NCBI RefSeq assembly: GCF_029625215.1
Contig: NZ_CP121197.1
Coordinates: 2,232,001 to 2,296,000, forward strand
Source of the DNA: Aurantibacillus circumpalustris
GTDB lineage: Bacteria > Bacteroidota > Bacteroidia > B-17B0 > Aurantibacillaceae
Direction: 5' to 3'
DNA: 64,000 bases
Both the position numbers and the translations under genes were made by a program. Below, piece after piece: positions 4,901 to 48,282 of the stretch. The notes beneath the pieces are model-generated. The model was not told the DNA's origin. It ran no database searches and saw nothing but the letters and a program-made list of their open reading frames with translations. Each line of letters opens with the position of its first letter. Positions within the stretch are counted from its first letter, which is position 1.

Positions 4901-5883
4901 TCTCTTCCGCTCTTGCCAAAGTTAATGATATCTTCTTCATGGTAATTTATATAATCATAAGAATTACTAATAAAATCAGGGTTTTGCGAGAGACTGGATT
5001 TTGATGCAATACGTTTTCCTTGTTCCTGACCAACATTTATGAAATAAAAACTGGTGTCACTATAAATGTTTTTTATAGGTTTAAATTTTAAACTTGTAGC
5101 TGAATTGGTTTTAATCCATTCGGTGGTAGAGCTTGCATAAAACAGTGCATAATCAAACAAACCGTCTTCACTTAATACAACTTTTATTGAATTTTCTACC
5201 AAATCATCGTATCTAAAATCTTTGTTACGTTCAGGAAGCATTTTGCCACCATTTCCAAAAACTCTAATTTTATTCGGATCTAGATTAGCAGTGTTTATTC
5301 CAATAGAATTAAAAAAGGCTTTGCTTAGTTTGTGTATACCCGTTTCTGTAACAGCAATTTTGTACCATTCTCCATTTGCAAGAACTGACGCAGAAGCAAA
5401 GCTAACACTCGCAGCTTCTCGAGCTACGGAATTATTAAGGTTAGAAACTTGCCACGTTACATCGTAGTCTACAAGCTCTTCTAGTTGATTTAAAGCATTA
5501 TATCTAAATGGAAATAATTTATAGTGATTTAAATTTTGATTTTTACTTAAACTTGCAACTTTTTCAGTAATGAACTGATTGCTGATAAAATCAGAAAAAT
5601 ACTTCTTTATCGCTTCACCGTGTGACTTTTCGACAGGAATCACTTTTTTAACGACTAATATTGGAATTGCCTGTTCATCGTATCCAGTTGCCTTTGAGAT
5701 GGTAAAATAAGGCAAATCTTTCTTACGAATATCATAATCAGCGAGTGACATCTCAAGATGAATAAAAGCTGTATCAGTAGTGTTGGAGCGCAGGATACGC
5801 GATGACTCTTTTAACTCAGTCTGTGCAAAAAAAGAGAGTTGTGCGAAGAGAAAAATGGAAGTGATTATTCGGTTGAGTTTCAT
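1972..5883 (-). CDS. porU: Type IX secretion system sortase PorU
   Basis: A gingipain-like (peptidase C25) sortase that cleaves the CTD signal from T9SS cargo and links it to the surface. I place the start at ATG 5883-5881 (MKLNRIITSIFLFAQLSFFAQ), a normal signal peptide. The frame stays open to 5967, but that would put a 28-residue charged leader before the signal. The C25 dyad is visible as His in NYTGHGGEVG (about residue 800) and Cys in FITATCEFSRYDDPG (about residue 834). A CTD-like FlgD fold with NYPNPF closes the roughly 1303-residue protein. porV follows directly, and porP/gldJ are divergent. Confidence 0.95.
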   Translation of the reverse strand: MKLNRIITSIFLFAQLSFFAQTELKESSRILRSNTTDTAFIHLEMSLADYDIRKKDLPYFTISKATGYDEQAIPILVVKKVIPVEKSHGEAIKKYFSDFISNQFITEKVASLSKNQNLNHYKLFPFRYNALNQLEELVDYDVTWQVSNLNNSVAREAASVSFASASVLANGEWYKIAVTETGIHKLSKAFFNSIGINTANLDPNKIRVFGNGGKMLPERNKDFRYDDLVENSIKVVLSEDGLFDYALFYASSTTEWIKTNSATSLKFKPIKNIYSDTSFYFINVGQEQGKRIASKSSLSQNPDFISNSYDYINYHEEDIINFGKSGREFYGEYFDLTSSYNFSWSDGDFLNDSIYAELTVAALYTDTTTFILNGNGLNFRATTAAIQIGTYSDFASKVTRSGKAINSNSSSIILAVSKLTSKSVGWLDKLTVNARRSLTFRGKQFSFRDSRSKGLGKVCNFSISNTPNSVFTLWNVTDNLNPFEQAYITVGSAINYTCKVDSLNEFCIAPINDYYSPVFVGKIANQNLHAISKANYIIVSHPLFVKEAERLGAFHQQKEGLSYVVATIDQIYNEFGSGKQDISAIRDFIRMIYSRTINLTEDQQLKYVLLMGDGSYDNKNRNVTSNSNLIPTYESKESLDPIRSVISDDFYALMDPNEGANAEEDGNSSVDIGIGRFPCRTLAEVKAVIAKIENYYRKDPNYLENNSAPETRIAVNESPLGDWRTWLLFLGDDEDWATHMKQSDNLVKTVKNITSDYNIDEINLDAYQRFSTPGGNRYPDAASDFLKRIDKGALIFNYTGHGGEVGLTAERMIDMEIINTLNNFNKLPLFITATCEFSRYDDPGRTSAGEACLLNPKGGAIALYTTCRVAYSTFNELINTEVLKRLFTRLPNGKWPTLGDAIALTKAQLTQKYYYANFHLLGDPALTLAYPEEKVITSHFNNVALSPTSSDTIGSLSKITVKGFVADKGGKKLSNFNGIIYPTVFDKEQTIVCLLNTIESGVSSGTAGNIVPFTFNMQKNILYRGKSLVTNGDFSFTFIVPKDISFSPGPGKISYYATNGVVDAGGYYNKIVVGGGSATSQIIDNEGPQVNLFLDDKNFVAGGVTSERPVLFADLVDSSGINTVGTGIGHDISVILDANTSKPIVLNDYYESNLNSYQSGRVRYPYGKLEEGKHTLTFKVWDIQNNSTTVTSDFIVVNSAELALKHVLNYPNPFTTHTKFMFQHNQACNPLKVTVQIYTVSGKIVKTLQKSTSCEGSLSEGIDWDGRDDYGDKLGRGVYIYKLAILDVENKKAEKIEKLVILN

Positions 5884-43928: not shown

Positions 43929-44795
43929 TTAGTTTTTAATAAAAGTTTGGGTAATCGCCTCGTTTTCAAAATTAAGCTGAATAAAATAGTACCCTGATTC
44001 AAATTTTGAAACCTCTATGGTTAGGAGATCTAGATGGATATTAGCATACTGCATAATTGTTTGTCCGAGAATATTTTTTATGAAGATTGACTTCGGCCTA
44101 GATTTTTCGAAACGAATGTTGATTAAATCTGTAGACGGATTTGGAAAAATGTTGATTCCCTTTTTATCCATATTATTTAAGGGTAGGCTTGTTGTAAGTG
44201 GGCAGCTTGATCCTAAACCTAAGCTGCTATATACTGATAAGGTTGGACTAATTCGTGCAAGACAATTGAGTGTTGAAAAAGCTTCGAATCCATCAAAAGG
44301 TGCCAATAAACCTCCTAAACTACCAACACCTTCAATGATAGGTTGTGAATTATCAAATGTAAATCGTTTATGATAAAATCCATCGTTAATTAATACGCTG
44401 TCTTTTGAAATCAGCGTATGGGTTTGCACCGTAGAATTATTACTTAACAAGGCTGCAGTGTCGCCTACTACCTTGTTAAAGTTATAGAGAATGTACTCTT
44501 GATTATTTGCAACAGAATAAACAATCTTAAGCAAGGTGTCTTCTCGAATTACCCCAGCCCTATAACATTGAAAGTTGGTTACATCAAAGCTGTTAATATA
44601 TTTAAATACTTTTCCATTAATCATACTGTCTTTGGTCACCTTCAAATAATAAGAACAATTTATCGGTGGACCTACAGTACTAATAGTAGTAGACTGCTGC
44701 CAGTAGTGATTTGTGTCTAAAGGTAATTTTCGGTATTGTGCTTTAAAAGAAGATGAAATAAAACAGAAAATAATTATGACTAATAAATTTTTCAT
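43929..44795 (-). CDS. T9SS type A sorting-domain protein
   Basis: A 288-residue secreted protein. The signal peptide ends SSSFKAQ. The middle is an uncharacterised beta-rich domain with a few Cys. The C-terminal domain is a type A sorting signal: GINIFPNPSTDLINIRF, then IFIKNILGQTIMQ and SKFESGYYFIQLNF, ending in FIKN. It is probably secreted by the T9SS and anchored by PorU. It is a monocistronic minus-strand gene. No functional domain is recognised. Confidence 0.88.
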   Translation of the reverse strand: MKNLLVIIIFCFISSSFKAQYRKLPLDTNHYWQQSTTISTVGPPINCSYYLKVTKDSMINGKVFKYINSFDVTNFQCYRAGVIREDTLLKIVYSVANNQEYILYNFNKVVGDTAALLSNNSTVQTHTLISKDSVLINDGFYHKRFTFDNSQPIIEGVGSLGGLLAPFDGFEAFSTLNCLARISPTLSVYSSLGLGSSCPLTTSLPLNNMDKKGINIFPNPSTDLINIRFEKSRPKSIFIKNILGQTIMQYANIHLDLLTIEVSKFESGYYFIQLNFENEAITQTFIKN

Positions 44796-44995: not shown

Positions 44996-45262
44996 TTATT
45001 TATCCTCTTCCTTTTTCTTGTCGATTCCTTTTTCTTCCGTTTCTTTCAACTTGTCTGCCCCGCAGCTTTTGCATGGTTTGTAACCCTTTTTCTTTGCGTC
45101 TTTAAGCTCTATTTCTTTGAAATTAGATTTTACGGTGGGACAACTTTTTACGTGGTATTTTTTTCCCTTTTCAGCAATGTAAACTGTTTGAGCATTTAAT
45201 TTGGTAAAGCTGAATAAAATAAACAAAAAGGAAATAAAATTGAGTCTTTGAAAGTTGTTCAT
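44996..45262 (-). CDS. Small exported protein with Ada-like Cys metal motif
   Basis: An 88-residue protein. I set the start at ATG 45262 (MNNFQRLNFISFLFILFSFTKLNAQ), a signal peptide; the frame stays open farther, but that part overlaps the riboswitch on the other strand. The mature part is YIAEKGKKYHVKSCPTVKSN, then ELKDAKKKGYKPCKSCGAD, which resembles the metal-binding fold of Ada-type or hypothetical nuclease-linked domains (Cys-x(n)-Cys-x-x-Cys). The Lys/Glu-rich tail is disordered. Function is unknown. Confidence 0.75.
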   Translation of the reverse strand: MNNFQRLNFISFLFILFSFTKLNAQTVYIAEKGKKYHVKSCPTVKSNFKEIELKDAKKKGYKPCKSCGADKLKETEEKGIDKKKEEDK

Positions 45263-45328: not shown

Positions 45329-45336
45329 TATATTTG
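45329..45336 (+). promoter_or_regulatory. -7 box of the cobalamin riboswitch transcript
   Basis: TATATTTG, matching TAnnTTTG, just ahead of the riboswitch. Transcription would start at about 45342, at the riboswitch 5' end. Confidence 0.55.
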
Positions 45337-45342
45337 CAGTGT

Positions 45343-45515
45343 TGAATGGTTCTTCGCTCAAACGAAGATTAAAAGGGAACAACGGTGAAAAACCGCGACT
45401 GTGCCCGCAACTGTAGTCCTCATGTATTTTTGCCAATCATGGCCACTGTCTAATTAATTATGTGGATGGGAAGGCGGTAAGATAGAGGTAGTCAGGAGAC
45501 CTGCCGCCAACAAAC
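45343..45515 (+). promoter_or_regulatory. Cobalamin (adenosylcobalamin/B12) riboswitch
   Basis: The conserved elements appear in order: AGGGAAC, CGGTGAAAAACCGCGACTG, TGCCCGCAACTGTA, a GCCACTGTC arm, GGGAAGGCGG and the B12 box AGTCAGGAGACCTGCC (45490-45505). This is a textbook cobalamin riboswitch and should repress the downstream gene when B12 is abundant. The 5' boundary is set from the -7 box. The roughly 80 bases between it and the ATG at 45594 would hold the expression platform; the exact antiterminator or ribosome-site hairpin was not resolved by eye. Confidence 0.95.
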
Positions 45516-45593
45516 CATCAAATGCTCTCGGGAAGAAGAACAGATGCACACGCTGTGCTACCGTTTTGTTTCTTGTAAATTTAAGAATGTAAA

Positions 45594-46829
45594 ATGTTAG
45601 ATAGAAAAGAAGAAGAAACAAATTGTCCGCGTTGCGAAAAAAAATTCATTTGCAACCCAAATGATATAAGTGCTTGTAATTGCTCTAAAGTGGAACTTAC
45701 CACCGAAGAGTATCGCTTTATAAGTTCTCAATTTAAGATCTGTGTCTGTAATGTGTGCTTAAAGGATCTTAAAGACGAGTACAATAAAAAATTTCATTAC
45801 AACAAGCCAAATAATTTTAAGGATCGTACATACAGTATCTTTCTGCTTTTTGTTTTATTCTTTGAAATAATGAATGCGCAAACCTATGCGCCATCAGTAG
45901 GGCAAGCGGGCACTACAGCAATACACAAAGATAGTTCTGTATTTGTGAATTGGGCGGTTGCGAGCCAAATTACACGAGGTTATCAAAATATTTCGAATCC
46001 AAGTTTAGGTTTTGCTACTTCCGGAGATAATGCAATGGCCACGGGTAAAGCCGAAGGCAGCGCTGTTAGTCTGGGTGACGGTGGTTATGCCATTTGTACT
46101 TTTGAAAAATCAATTCGTAATGATGCAGGATTTGATTTTGCAGTTTTTGAGAACGGTTTCGATGATGTTTTTTTGGAACTCGCATTTGTAGAAGTGAGTA
46201 GTGATGGTGTGAATTTTTTCAGGTTTAAAGCCCATTCATTAAGTGATACGGTGGCACAAACAAATGGATTTGGATCAACAGATGCGACAAAAATAAATAA
46301 TCTGGCTGGGAAATACAGGGGCGGCTACGGTACTCCTTTTGATTTGCAGGAACTTGCTGGTACCGTAGGTTTAGATGTAAATGCGATTACACACGTAAAA
46401 ATTATTGATGTAGTGGGAAGTCTTAATAATAATTATGCCAGTCGTGATTTTAACATGAATAAAATAAACGATCCTTGGCCAACCCCTTTTCCTTCGGGCG
46501 GTTTTGATTTGGATGCTGTTGGAGTTATTCATCAATCAACAATAGCAGGAATACATGAGGATAAAGATCCTATTCCTGTTTCAATTTATCCAAATCCTGT
46601 AAAAGCAGGAGAATTTATTTATCTTGATAAATTGCCTTTTGGAACATCTGTTGAGTTGCAGGATGCTTCCGGTAAAATAATTGTAAAGGTAAAACTTACA
46701 TTAGAGCAAGAGACACTTCATCAAGAAAAACAGACTATTTCTACAAAAGGTTTATGTGTAGGGCTTTATTCACTAAAAATTATTTCAGGGAATACCCTTC
46801 TGATAAAAAGAGTTATCGTTTCTGAGTGA
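45594..46829 (+). CDS. B12-riboswitch-controlled fusion: Cys-rich CWC domain plus T9SS type A cargo
   Basis: A single 411-residue frame with two unlike parts. Residues 1-60 are a Cys-rich CWC domain: CPRCEKKFIC, CNCSKVEL and CVCNVCLKDL, eight cysteines, typical of small cytosolic proteins in B12 loci. Residues about 78-96 form a signal-like segment (YSIFLLFVLFFEIMNAQ). The rest is an exported beta domain (DGGYAICTFEKSI, DFAVFENGFDDVFLELAFV) and a type A sorting signal starting with IYPNPVKAG. No in-frame ATG, GTG or TTG lies between the CWC part and the signal segment. A role in B12 capture at the surface is inferred from the riboswitch. Confidence 0.85.
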   Translation: MLDRKEEETNCPRCEKKFICNPNDISACNCSKVELTTEEYRFISSQFKICVCNVCLKDLKDEYNKKFHYNKPNNFKDRTYSIFLLFVLFFEIMNAQTYAPSVGQAGTTAIHKDSSVFVNWAVASQITRGYQNISNPSLGFATSGDNAMATGKAEGSAVSLGDGGYAICTFEKSIRNDAGFDFAVFENGFDDVFLELAFVEVSSDGVNFFRFKAHSLSDTVAQTNGFGSTDATKINNLAGKYRGGYGTPFDLQELAGTVGLDVNAITHVKIIDVVGSLNNNYASRDFNMNKINDPWPTPFPSGGFDLDAVGVIHQSTIAGIHEDKDPIPVSIYPNPVKAGEFIYLDKLPFGTSVELQDASGKIIVKVKLTLEQETLHQEKQTISTKGLCVGLYSLKIISGNTLLIKRVIVSE

Positions 46830-46860
46830 TAAAGTTATTTTGACTATTATTGCTTTAGAA

Positions 46861-48282
46861 ATGAAGTCAGCGGTTAAATTATTTATTCTGTTTCTGAGTT
46901 CTGCGGTTATTGTTTTAATCGTTGCACCTTTATTTCAAAAAGGCTGCTTTATTGACGGGATGCTGTATAAAACGGTTTCTTATAATTATGCTGAAGGACT
47001 TGCTTCGTTCTGGAATATGAAATTTACGGATACGAGCATGACTTTTTTCTGTGAGCAACCTCCACTTTATTTCTATTTATTGAGCAATTTTTATAAACTT
47101 TTCGGGGTACATTATTTAACCGACAGGTTTTTTACCTTGTTGCTTTTTATTGCACTCACAGTTCTGTTGCATTTAATTTTAAAGCTAGTATTTAAAAAAA
47201 CTCAATCGTATTTATTACTCACCTACTTTTTTCTACTCGCTATTCCGGTGTTTTGCTGGAGCTATGTAAATCAGGTAATTGAACCTCTTGTGTGTGTATT
47301 TGTTAGTTTGGGTATTTTATTTTTTATAAGGTTTCTTCGCACAGATAAAATTGTGTTTATGATTTTGTTCGGGCTTGTTTGTTATTTGTTGTTTTTGACA
47401 AAAGGATTTCAATCTTGTTTTATTGTAGTTTTGCCTTTGAGTTATTTTCTTTTTACGAAATTGAAAAAAACCTTTTTTTTGTTCTCTTTTATATCTGTCG
47501 GGGTCTTTTTGCTGCTAATAATTGGAAGCATATTCATGTATATACCTGCCAAGGTTTGGTTTGAATGTTATTATTCAGCACGTTTGGTGTTAACGATTGA
47601 AAACGTTGGTAATACAACGAATAATCACTTTGAAATTATTGGAAGATTTTTTTCAGAAGTAATTGTTTGTTTGGGAATTGTTGTGTTATTGATTCTTTAT
47701 CTTAGAATTAAAAAAGCTTATCCTCTAGTATTTGTAATTAGAAATTTTTTAGCAAATAAACTTGCACTAGCTCTTTTCATCACGTCTTTATTTGGCAGTT
47801 TCCCTTACGCGATAAGTCTTGTGCAGCGGGGTTTTTATCTGATCCCTTCTTTTATATGTTTTGTTTTAGCGCTGGTTATTGGATTGAGACGGTACTGGAC
47901 GATTGTTTTTTGTGGACTAGAAAGAATTGATAAATTCAAATTAGTCTGGATTTTTACGGGGATGGTAATGCTAGCGGCTGTTTTTTATTTTTGTTTTAAT
48001 CTTACAGCATACAAGCGAGATGAGATTAAATTAAAAGACATCGATAAAATTCTTCCCCTTTTACAAGAGGGGGAAACCGTTATAATTGAATCGGCAATGT
48101 GGAACGATTTTAGTTTGCATTCTTATTTGTATATGGCGAAAAAAATTAGTTTAAGTGTTGAAGGAAAAGAAAGTCGTTTTTTGATAAAAGTAAAGTCTTC
48201 AACAAATGACACGCCTCAACATAAAATTAATCTAAACACAAACGAACTCGAGTTGTATTTTATACCGAAAACTCTTCCGTAA
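46861..48282 (+). CDS. GT39-like membrane glycosyltransferase
   Basis: A 473-residue polytopic inner-membrane protein starting at ATG 46861; the open frame begins at a TTG at 46840, but the ATG gives MKSAVKLFILFLSSAV as TM1. The first periplasmic loop has the GT39/ArnT-type pattern FIDGMLYKTVSYNYAEG and EQPPLYFYLLSNF (the PP-L-Y motif), then about ten TM helices and a soluble C-terminal domain. Such enzymes move sugars from polyprenyl phosphate to lipids or proteins. It follows the B12-riboswitch gene by 31 bases, so may be co-transcribed, but a link to B12 is not evident. Confidence 0.75.
   Translation: MKSAVKLFILFLSSAVIVLIVAPLFQKGCFIDGMLYKTVSYNYAEGLASFWNMKFTDTSMTFFCEQPPLYFYLLSNFYKLFGVHYLTDRFFTLLLFIALTVLLHLILKLVFKKTQSYLLLTYFFLLAIPVFCWSYVNQVIEPLVCVFVSLGILFFIRFLRTDKIVFMILFGLVCYLLFLTKGFQSCFIVVLPLSYFLFTKLKKTFFLFSFISVGVFLLLIIGSIFMYIPAKVWFECYYSARLVLTIENVGNTTNNHFEIIGRFFSEVIVCLGIVVLLILYLRIKKAYPLVFVIRNFLANKLALALFITSLFGSFPYAISLVQRGFYLIPSFICFVLALVIGLRRYWTIVFCGLERIDKFKLVWIFTGMVMLAAVFYFCFNLTAYKRDEIKLKDIDKILPLLQEGETVIIESAMWNDFSLHSYLYMAKKISLSVEGKESRFLIKVKSSTNDTPQHKINLNTNELELYFIPKTLP

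Follow-up and report, generated by a model that had tools for sequence, protein, structure and literature searches.

The closest described systems are those of Bacteroides thetaiotaomicron, in which DUF4465 proteins bind B12 and riboswitch-controlled operons hold several such binders (PMC12751083, PMC13398666, PMC8941943). A cobalamin riboswitch located before a TonB-dependent transporter has also been reported (PMC9723704). In this setting, BtuGH is described as a lipoprotein that fuses two parts of the B12 uptake system and whose halves both bind cobalamin (PMC12751083). Here, we describe a locus that combines an uncharacterised exported family with a rare two-compartment architecture, repeatedly evolved, within these known uptake systems. 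A single protein that unites a Cys-rich part proper to the cytosol with a B12-uptake-linked surface part, and has an export signal in the middle of the chain, is found in some uncultured Bacteroidota, and the join was made more than once among relatives. Like BtuG, BtuH and BtuJ of B. thetaiotaomicron, which are beta-propeller and DUF4465 proteins (PMC8941943, PMC13398666), the protein is linked to a riboswitch, is associated with neighboring BtuB-like genes, is exported, and has a predicted fold similar to that of BtuH2. Unlike them, it has no DUF4465 sequence match, it bears a T9SS tail in place of their lipoprotein signal, and it carries a cysteine-rich CWC part of the cytosolic type. It resembles BtuGH (PMC12751083) in that it unites two components of B12 uptake, but the halves of the protein described here belong to different compartments. 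With the small proteins of the Cys_rich_CWC family (PF14375) it shares the domain, its eight cysteines and the B12 context; their long-frame counterpart differs in that its CWC sits before a signal peptide in a 414-codon frame. We found no description of such a fusion in the listed titles and abstracts on BtuG/BtuH, CWC, DUF5522, internal signal peptides, T9SS with cobalamin or BtuB, and DUF4465 with T9SS.

The locus lies in the window, i.e., the whole stretch of 64,000 nucleotides of the Aurantibacillus circumpalustris genome that was analysed. Its features are as follows.

45329..45522, + strand: cobalamin riboswitch aptamer, RF00174 (cmscan, 96.7 bits against a gathering score of 31.5, full length)
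45594..46829, + strand: fused ORF, comprising CWC, linker, internal signal peptide, exported domain and T9SS tail
45594..45773, + strand: CWC domain of the cytosolic type, residues 1-60, eight Cys (PF14375 profile match)
45774..45836, + strand: linker in frame with CWC, residues 61-81 (codon comparison of the window with L042)
45837..45878, + strand: internal signal peptide, hydrophobic and cleavage part (hydropathy; cleavage by eye)
45879..46568, + strand: exported beta domain and candidate corrinoid binder, residues 96-325 (predicted fold, B12 context)
46569..46826, + strand: T9SS type A sorting domain (PF18962, TIGR04183)
46840..48282, + strand: PMT_2 glycosyltransferase-like ORF, TTG start as called (PF13231, E 2.8e-8)

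The fused ORF starts with ATG and encodes 411 amino acids in a single frame of 411 codons. The parts that a first-pass annotation had read in it, namely an eight-Cys CWC domain, an internal signal segment and a type A sorting signal, were all recovered. PF14375 matches residues 11-57, both in the whole protein (E 1.7e-8, 35.2 bits) and when the CWC part is searched alone (E 1.1e-9, 39 bits; cut-off 24 in both cases), and the cysteines are at residues 11, 14, 20, 28, 30, 50, 52 and 55. The hydrophobic run of the signal peptide spans residues 82-90 (IFLLFVLFF), with a probable cleavage site, placed by eye, between A95 and Q96. At the other end of the protein, Por_Secre_tail (PF18962) matches residues 331-409 (E 5.3e-8, 33.5 bits, cut-off 27) and the sorting signal is also recognized by TIGR04183 (E 1.4e-8, 34.6 bits, cut-off 23). 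The host has the T9SS machine, as indicated by an SprA_N match in its genome (E 2.0e-155), SprA being the only T9SS gene searched for. The PMT_2-like ORF starts 10 nt 3' of the fused one, has homologues at L039, L048 and L053, and is possibly co-transcribed with it.

We looked for the same architecture at 78 loci of the order in addition to the window, leaving out G085, where the core is cut at a contig end. Six genomes (those of the window, L039, L040, L042, L095 and L108) have CWC and the exported domain in one open frame, and all of them keep the eight cysteines. At 12 unfused loci, CWC or a CWC-DUF5522 protein is encoded by a separate gene directly upstream. When counted from the first ATG of the downstream gene (TTG in L045), the two genes overlap by 8 nt at six of these loci (L041, L044, L046, L049, L050, L051), by 4 nt at three (L067, L112, L116) and by 11 nt at L045, and they are separated by 1 and 3 nt at L043 and L063. 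Among the matches listed, pepA is within ~3 kb of the fused loci of the window, L039, L040 and L042 and also beside unfused ones, including L041, L043-L046 and L049-L051, so that fused and unfused loci share a chromosomal place. The fusion probably arose from two overlapping genes that were translationally coupled. In the maximum-likelihood tree of the exported domain, two changes between the fused and unfused states are needed among the CWC-bearing rows. One is near the window, L039, L040 and L042, where branching is poorly supported and rows without CWC are interspersed, and the other corresponds to the sisters L095 and L108. Scoring the rows without CWC as a separate, third state raises this number to nine. 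The CWC fusions fall in two lineages, with at least two changes between states. Two other multi-Cys open frames running through the leader, at L057 (the same gene as L027) and L105, were judged by eye not to be CWC.

A comparable join has been made with another small domain. In four genomes (G199, G222, G230 and G191, at loci L299, L241, L234 and L300, respectively), DUF5522 (PF17653) shares one frame with a signal peptide and a domain distantly related to the exported one. These proteins have the same succession of small Cys-rich domain, internal signal peptide and exported domain, but the Cys-rich family is another one, the genomes belong to another class of the phylum, and the exported domain is only distantly related. 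Separately, at L240 888-1094 (- strand), in another family of the phylum, a CWC gene is directly 5' of a distant exported-domain relative and in a different frame.

The first-pass annotation had proposed either a true fusion or two genes joined by the loss of a stop. Both ideas retain a part: the same-locus relatives do have two overlapping genes, and a chance loss of the stop is disfavoured relative to a true fusion, because the join is present in six genomes of two lineages with all eight cysteines and because the linker is constrained in one close pair. Homologues are not always two genes, since the fused frame is open in five further genomes, and for this reason the fusion is not a sequencing error. 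The two genes of the relatives might still evoke an assembly error, or a decaying gene, in which a missed stop or frameshift joined the neighbors. This is very improbable given the further open fused frames, the quality of the window genome (4.60 Mb in a single contig, completeness 100) and the constraint on both CWC and core.

The constraint on the linker is clearest between the window and L042. Over residues 61-77 (17 codons) this pair has Sd 8, Nd 3 and a pN/pS of 0.06, the values for CWC and core being 0.24 and 0.33, and over 21 linker codons 11 of the 15 differences are at third positions (binomial p 0.0018). The linker pN/pS is 0.30-0.37 in pairs with L040, where the third-position excess is not significant, 0.30-0.48 in pairs with L039 (9 codons) and 0.82 between L095 and L108 (8 codons), all linker ratios being rough because pS is near or above 1, with synonymous sites near saturation. 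The codon comparisons thus argue strongly for protein-level constraint on the linker in the window-L042 pair and weakly in the other pairs. This bears on the possibility that one frame gives two products, with ribosomes also initiating ahead of the hydrophobic run, at ATC, CTG, TTG or GTG rather than ATG, such that the surface protein would lack CWC and the fused form would be a by-product. The overlapping genes of the relatives suggest coupled re-initiation, and candidate starts can be found: a CTG-Lys precedes the run in L039, a TTG is at its edge in L042, and a GTG precedes it in the DUF5522 fusions L234 and L241. However, none of the candidates is common to all fusions, and the GTG is not a conserved start, since L299 has GTT at that place. 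The window, as noted earlier from its letters, has no ATG, GTG or TTG from Cys55 up to the hydrophobic run; the first one after that is an ATG at residue 93, in the c-region. L095 likewise has none of the three before the run. Together with a constraint that spans the linker in the window-L042 pair, this makes two products from one frame unlikely.

The fusions have signal peptides of normal hydropathy, within or above the unfused range: the best 10-residue value is 3.05 in the window and 2.11-3.05 in the six fusions, with a median of 2.6 and a minimum of 1.64 in 73 unfused relatives. One could imagine a near-neutral fusion, where two frames merged and CWC is tolerated as an extension of the n-region, to be degraded along with the signal peptide. 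The rarity of the architecture is in line with this idea. Pfam finds CWC in 37 of the 87 genomes of the order (that of L040, G017, was missed by Pfam and found by tblastn). In the phylum sample, 106 of the 395 genomes have CWC, the window's own counted; among these 106, the window's genome is the only one with CWC in a frame above 172 codons, the other open frames having 67-172 codons. Several relatives at the pepA locus, among the matches listed, have no CWC at all. Yet the eight cysteines are kept in every fusion, the pN/pS of CWC is 0.24-0.41 in six fusion pairs, and joins of this kind are seen in two or more lineages, as well as with DUF5522, which leaves the near-neutral case rather doubtful.

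We regard it as reasonably probable that the gene produces one polypeptide which is split by signal peptidase into a CWC stub facing the cytosol and a T9SS-exported corrinoid-capture protein. The riboswitch would permit expression of the fused gene at low cellular B12, and B12 would otherwise repress it. The CWC part, a small Cys-rich domain of the metal-binding type that would serve in corrinoid salvage, would fold in the cytosol, and the internal signal peptide would thread the remainder through Sec. A cut by signal peptidase at the A95-Q96 site would then leave CWC and signal peptide as a membrane stub oriented to the cytosol. Finally, T9SS would carry the exported beta domain over the outer membrane, where corrinoids would be captured for BtuB. 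A more specific and tentative reading takes the protein as a two-compartment polyprotein, with signal peptidase as the processing protease giving a tethered, corrinoid-handling CWC and an exported capture protein in a one-to-one ratio, an arrangement that could have independent origins, two or more involving CWC besides that with DUF5522. If so, both ends of the uptake route would be made one-to-one. This raises a question: could a folded cytosolic domain placed before a cleavable signal peptide survive as a useful product?

The exported domain has a wider distribution than the fusion. Within the order it is present in 79 of 87 genomes, a count that includes that of the window, and in the phylum sample it is present in 48 of 395 genomes, mostly as weak partial matches; the family is not universal in the phylum. 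To survey its context outside the order we took the best 80 of at least 460 relatives and removed 18 order repeats, leaving 62 loci, a set that leans to close relatives since only the best 80 were kept. Btu-like genes were labeled by blastp (E<=1e-6) to this genome's three own proteins, with ends removed. The first-pass annotation had named a lack of co-occurrence with B12 genes as the result that would speak against it. We found the opposite, as 56 of these 62 loci (from the best 80 of at least 460) have a riboswitch and/or BtuB-, BtuG- or BtuH-like genes. By element, these 62 loci from the best 80 have a riboswitch by nhmmer in 45 cases, a BtuB-like gene in 45 (a label that may take in other TonB receptors), a BtuG-like gene in 47 and a BtuH-like gene in 28; neither riboswitch nor Btu-like gene was found at L145, L171, L184, L199, L201 and L204. 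Inside the order the same context surrounds 63 of the 78 loci, and the other 15, including the fusions L042 and L108, have neither element in the stretch examined. The sole control consisted of four T9SS-tailed loci of the window genome, none of which has B12 context. Two gene orders are frequent: riboswitch, BtuB, BtuH, exported domain and BtuG, at times followed by CWC; and riboswitch, BtuH, exported domain, BtuB and BtuG. An uncharacterised exported family thus recurs in the B12 operons of Bacteroidota.

The window genome itself has two cobalamin riboswitches. The second one heads an operon (L038 7703-12024; genome C1:4497702-4502023, - strand) encoding, in this order, a BtuB-like protein, a DUF4465 protein (BtuH-like, with a T9SS tail) and a DUF5074 protein (BtuG-like), without the exported domain. 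B12-binding domains have seven matches in this genome, six of them over the cut-off.

What the exported domain does can be approached through its predicted fold. No Pfam model matches it, and the AlphaFold2 model built from 57 sequences has a pLDDT of 91.5 and a pTM of 0.72. The nearest fold is 7biz_A, the B12-binding lipoprotein BtuH2 (Z 11.6, rmsd 3.5, 156 aligned, 19% identity), followed by 8blw_B, BtuG1 of B. thetaiotaomicron (Z 10.4, rmsd 3.8, 162 residues); both were found by VIA-align re-examination of Foldseek's 1000 best and are outside Foldseek's own top 50. Membership in DUF4465 by sequence was rejected, as the Pfam model PF14717 matches none of the 57 members at E<=1 and hhalign of the domain against 23 BtuH-like proteins gave no match, and the fold resemblance was kept as a lead. 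Searching PDB sequences with the core profile gave no match, and the one match of a single-protein search of PDB (E 1.1) was taken as chance. Near its C-terminal end the core has TPFxSGGFDLD, which was compared by eye only with the HI-loop Tyr motif GTPAYF / NTPAY. The corrinoid capture at the surface put forward in the first-pass annotation has its support in context and predicted fold. We consider that the exported domain likely captures corrinoids, because of its B12 genomic context and of a predicted fold nearest to BtuH2 and BtuG1. It could instead act at the surface under B12 regulation without being a corrinoid binder, e.g., as an adhesin or as a scaffold for BtuB/BtuG. The jelly roll is a widespread fold with many ligands, Z values of 9.3-9.4 are also reached by PAPP-A and a CBM32 protein over this domain, and the DUF4465 sequence signal is absent. 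But the two best structural matches over the domain are both B12-binding proteins and the domain is found within BtuB-BtuH-BtuG operons, such that a non-binding role seems somewhat improbable. A further observation is a weak match of residues 172-214 to the LIC_13355 family lipoproteins (NF033170, NCBIfam; E 0.0012, far under the cut-off), a faint hint that the domain has relatives beyond Bacteroidota.

The riboswitch of the window is complete, as first described, and its start is 14 nt earlier than then claimed. The aptamer ends 71 nt before the fused ORF. The TATATTTG box at 45329-45336 resembles a -7 element of Bacteroidota. Between aptamer and ORF, a pattern scan found no terminator on the + strand, and the fold of the segment 45503-45592 does not stand out from those of shuffled sequences (z 0.52; at least as good in 145 of 200). 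The presence of the element varies among relatives. It exceeds the Rfam cut-off in three of the six CWC fusions (window, L039, L040). L095 has an AdoCbl-II-like match 5' of the fused CWC gene (4966-5068, - strand) at 29.6 bits, below the gathering score of 36.5, which may be a diverged aptamer, and the Rfam models find no cobalamin riboswitch at L042 and L108. Four of the 12 unfused CWC loci have one (L063, L067, L112, L116) and eight have none (L041, L043-L046, L049-L051), a laxer search having covered L041, L043, L044, L045 and L051 among the latter. The riboswitch is not a fixed part of the fusion architecture. In the order as a whole, 57 of the 78 loci have an upstream RF00174 match on the same strand, L095 among them below the gathering score; it is at 85-464 nt in 38 cases, at 1,358 nt in one and at 3.0-3.6 kb in 18. 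The nhmmer profile finds riboswitches at 59 of the 78 loci and replaced a regex that was dropped for poor recall (13 of 78). Regarding the proposed tie of riboswitch and B12 to this architecture, the exported domain has a strong link to B12 and CWC a fair one, and the riboswitch itself is over the cut-off in only half of the fusions.

Several associations of CWC point to the cytosolic side of B12 metabolism. In 58 CWC sequences, seven cysteines are invariant and the eighth is present at 90% or more. Fusions of CWC with a DUF71-type PP-loop protein (DUF71/Diphthami_syn_2) are encoded at L117 3169-4104 and L118 4018-5013, with CWC in a C-terminal position in one and N-terminal in the other, and DUF71 has a subgroup adjoining B12 salvage genes (PMC3541065). 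At L120, CWC comes after a cobalamin riboswitch and a gene read by eye as metE, and at L121 it is flanked by a riboswitch and a BtuH-like gene. It is also named in the tables of a paper on a Sulfurospirillum cobamide gene cluster (PMC7755780). Our best guess is that CWC acts in cytosolic corrinoid salvage. Structure comparisons gave no information on its fold: the predicted model has a pLDDT of 77.9 and a best Z of 2.6, with only three chains aligned, and the matches of the CWC profile to the PDB (best E 0.0022) were short zinc-finger ones taken as chance. DUF5522, on which we found no literature under this name or PF17653, is present in 111 of the 395 phylum-sample genomes; stops within its matches in one genus are natural C-terminal stops and not interruptions. 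The locus and its relatives also tie CWC and DUF5522, two small domains with no assigned function, to B12 salvage.

The two domains also occur together in one small protein, at L063, L112, L116, L287-L298 and L302 (with CWC-like parts recognized by eye in most of L287-L298), and at L287 and L292 this protein is followed by a gene that looks by eye like CobU. At L301, DUF5522 is in a frame of 307 codons and is followed by the PP-loop motif SGGKDS, by eye a DUF71-like fusion. Beside the fused gene of the window, a second T9SS-tailed protein, with no assigned function, adjoins the locus at 43929-44795 (- strand). Between them, at 44996-45262 (- strand), a divergent gene encodes a secreted-looking small protein of 88 amino acids that contains Cys and has a weak, sub-threshold match to the Ada metal-binding domain; it has homologues at L042, L048, L053 and L054.
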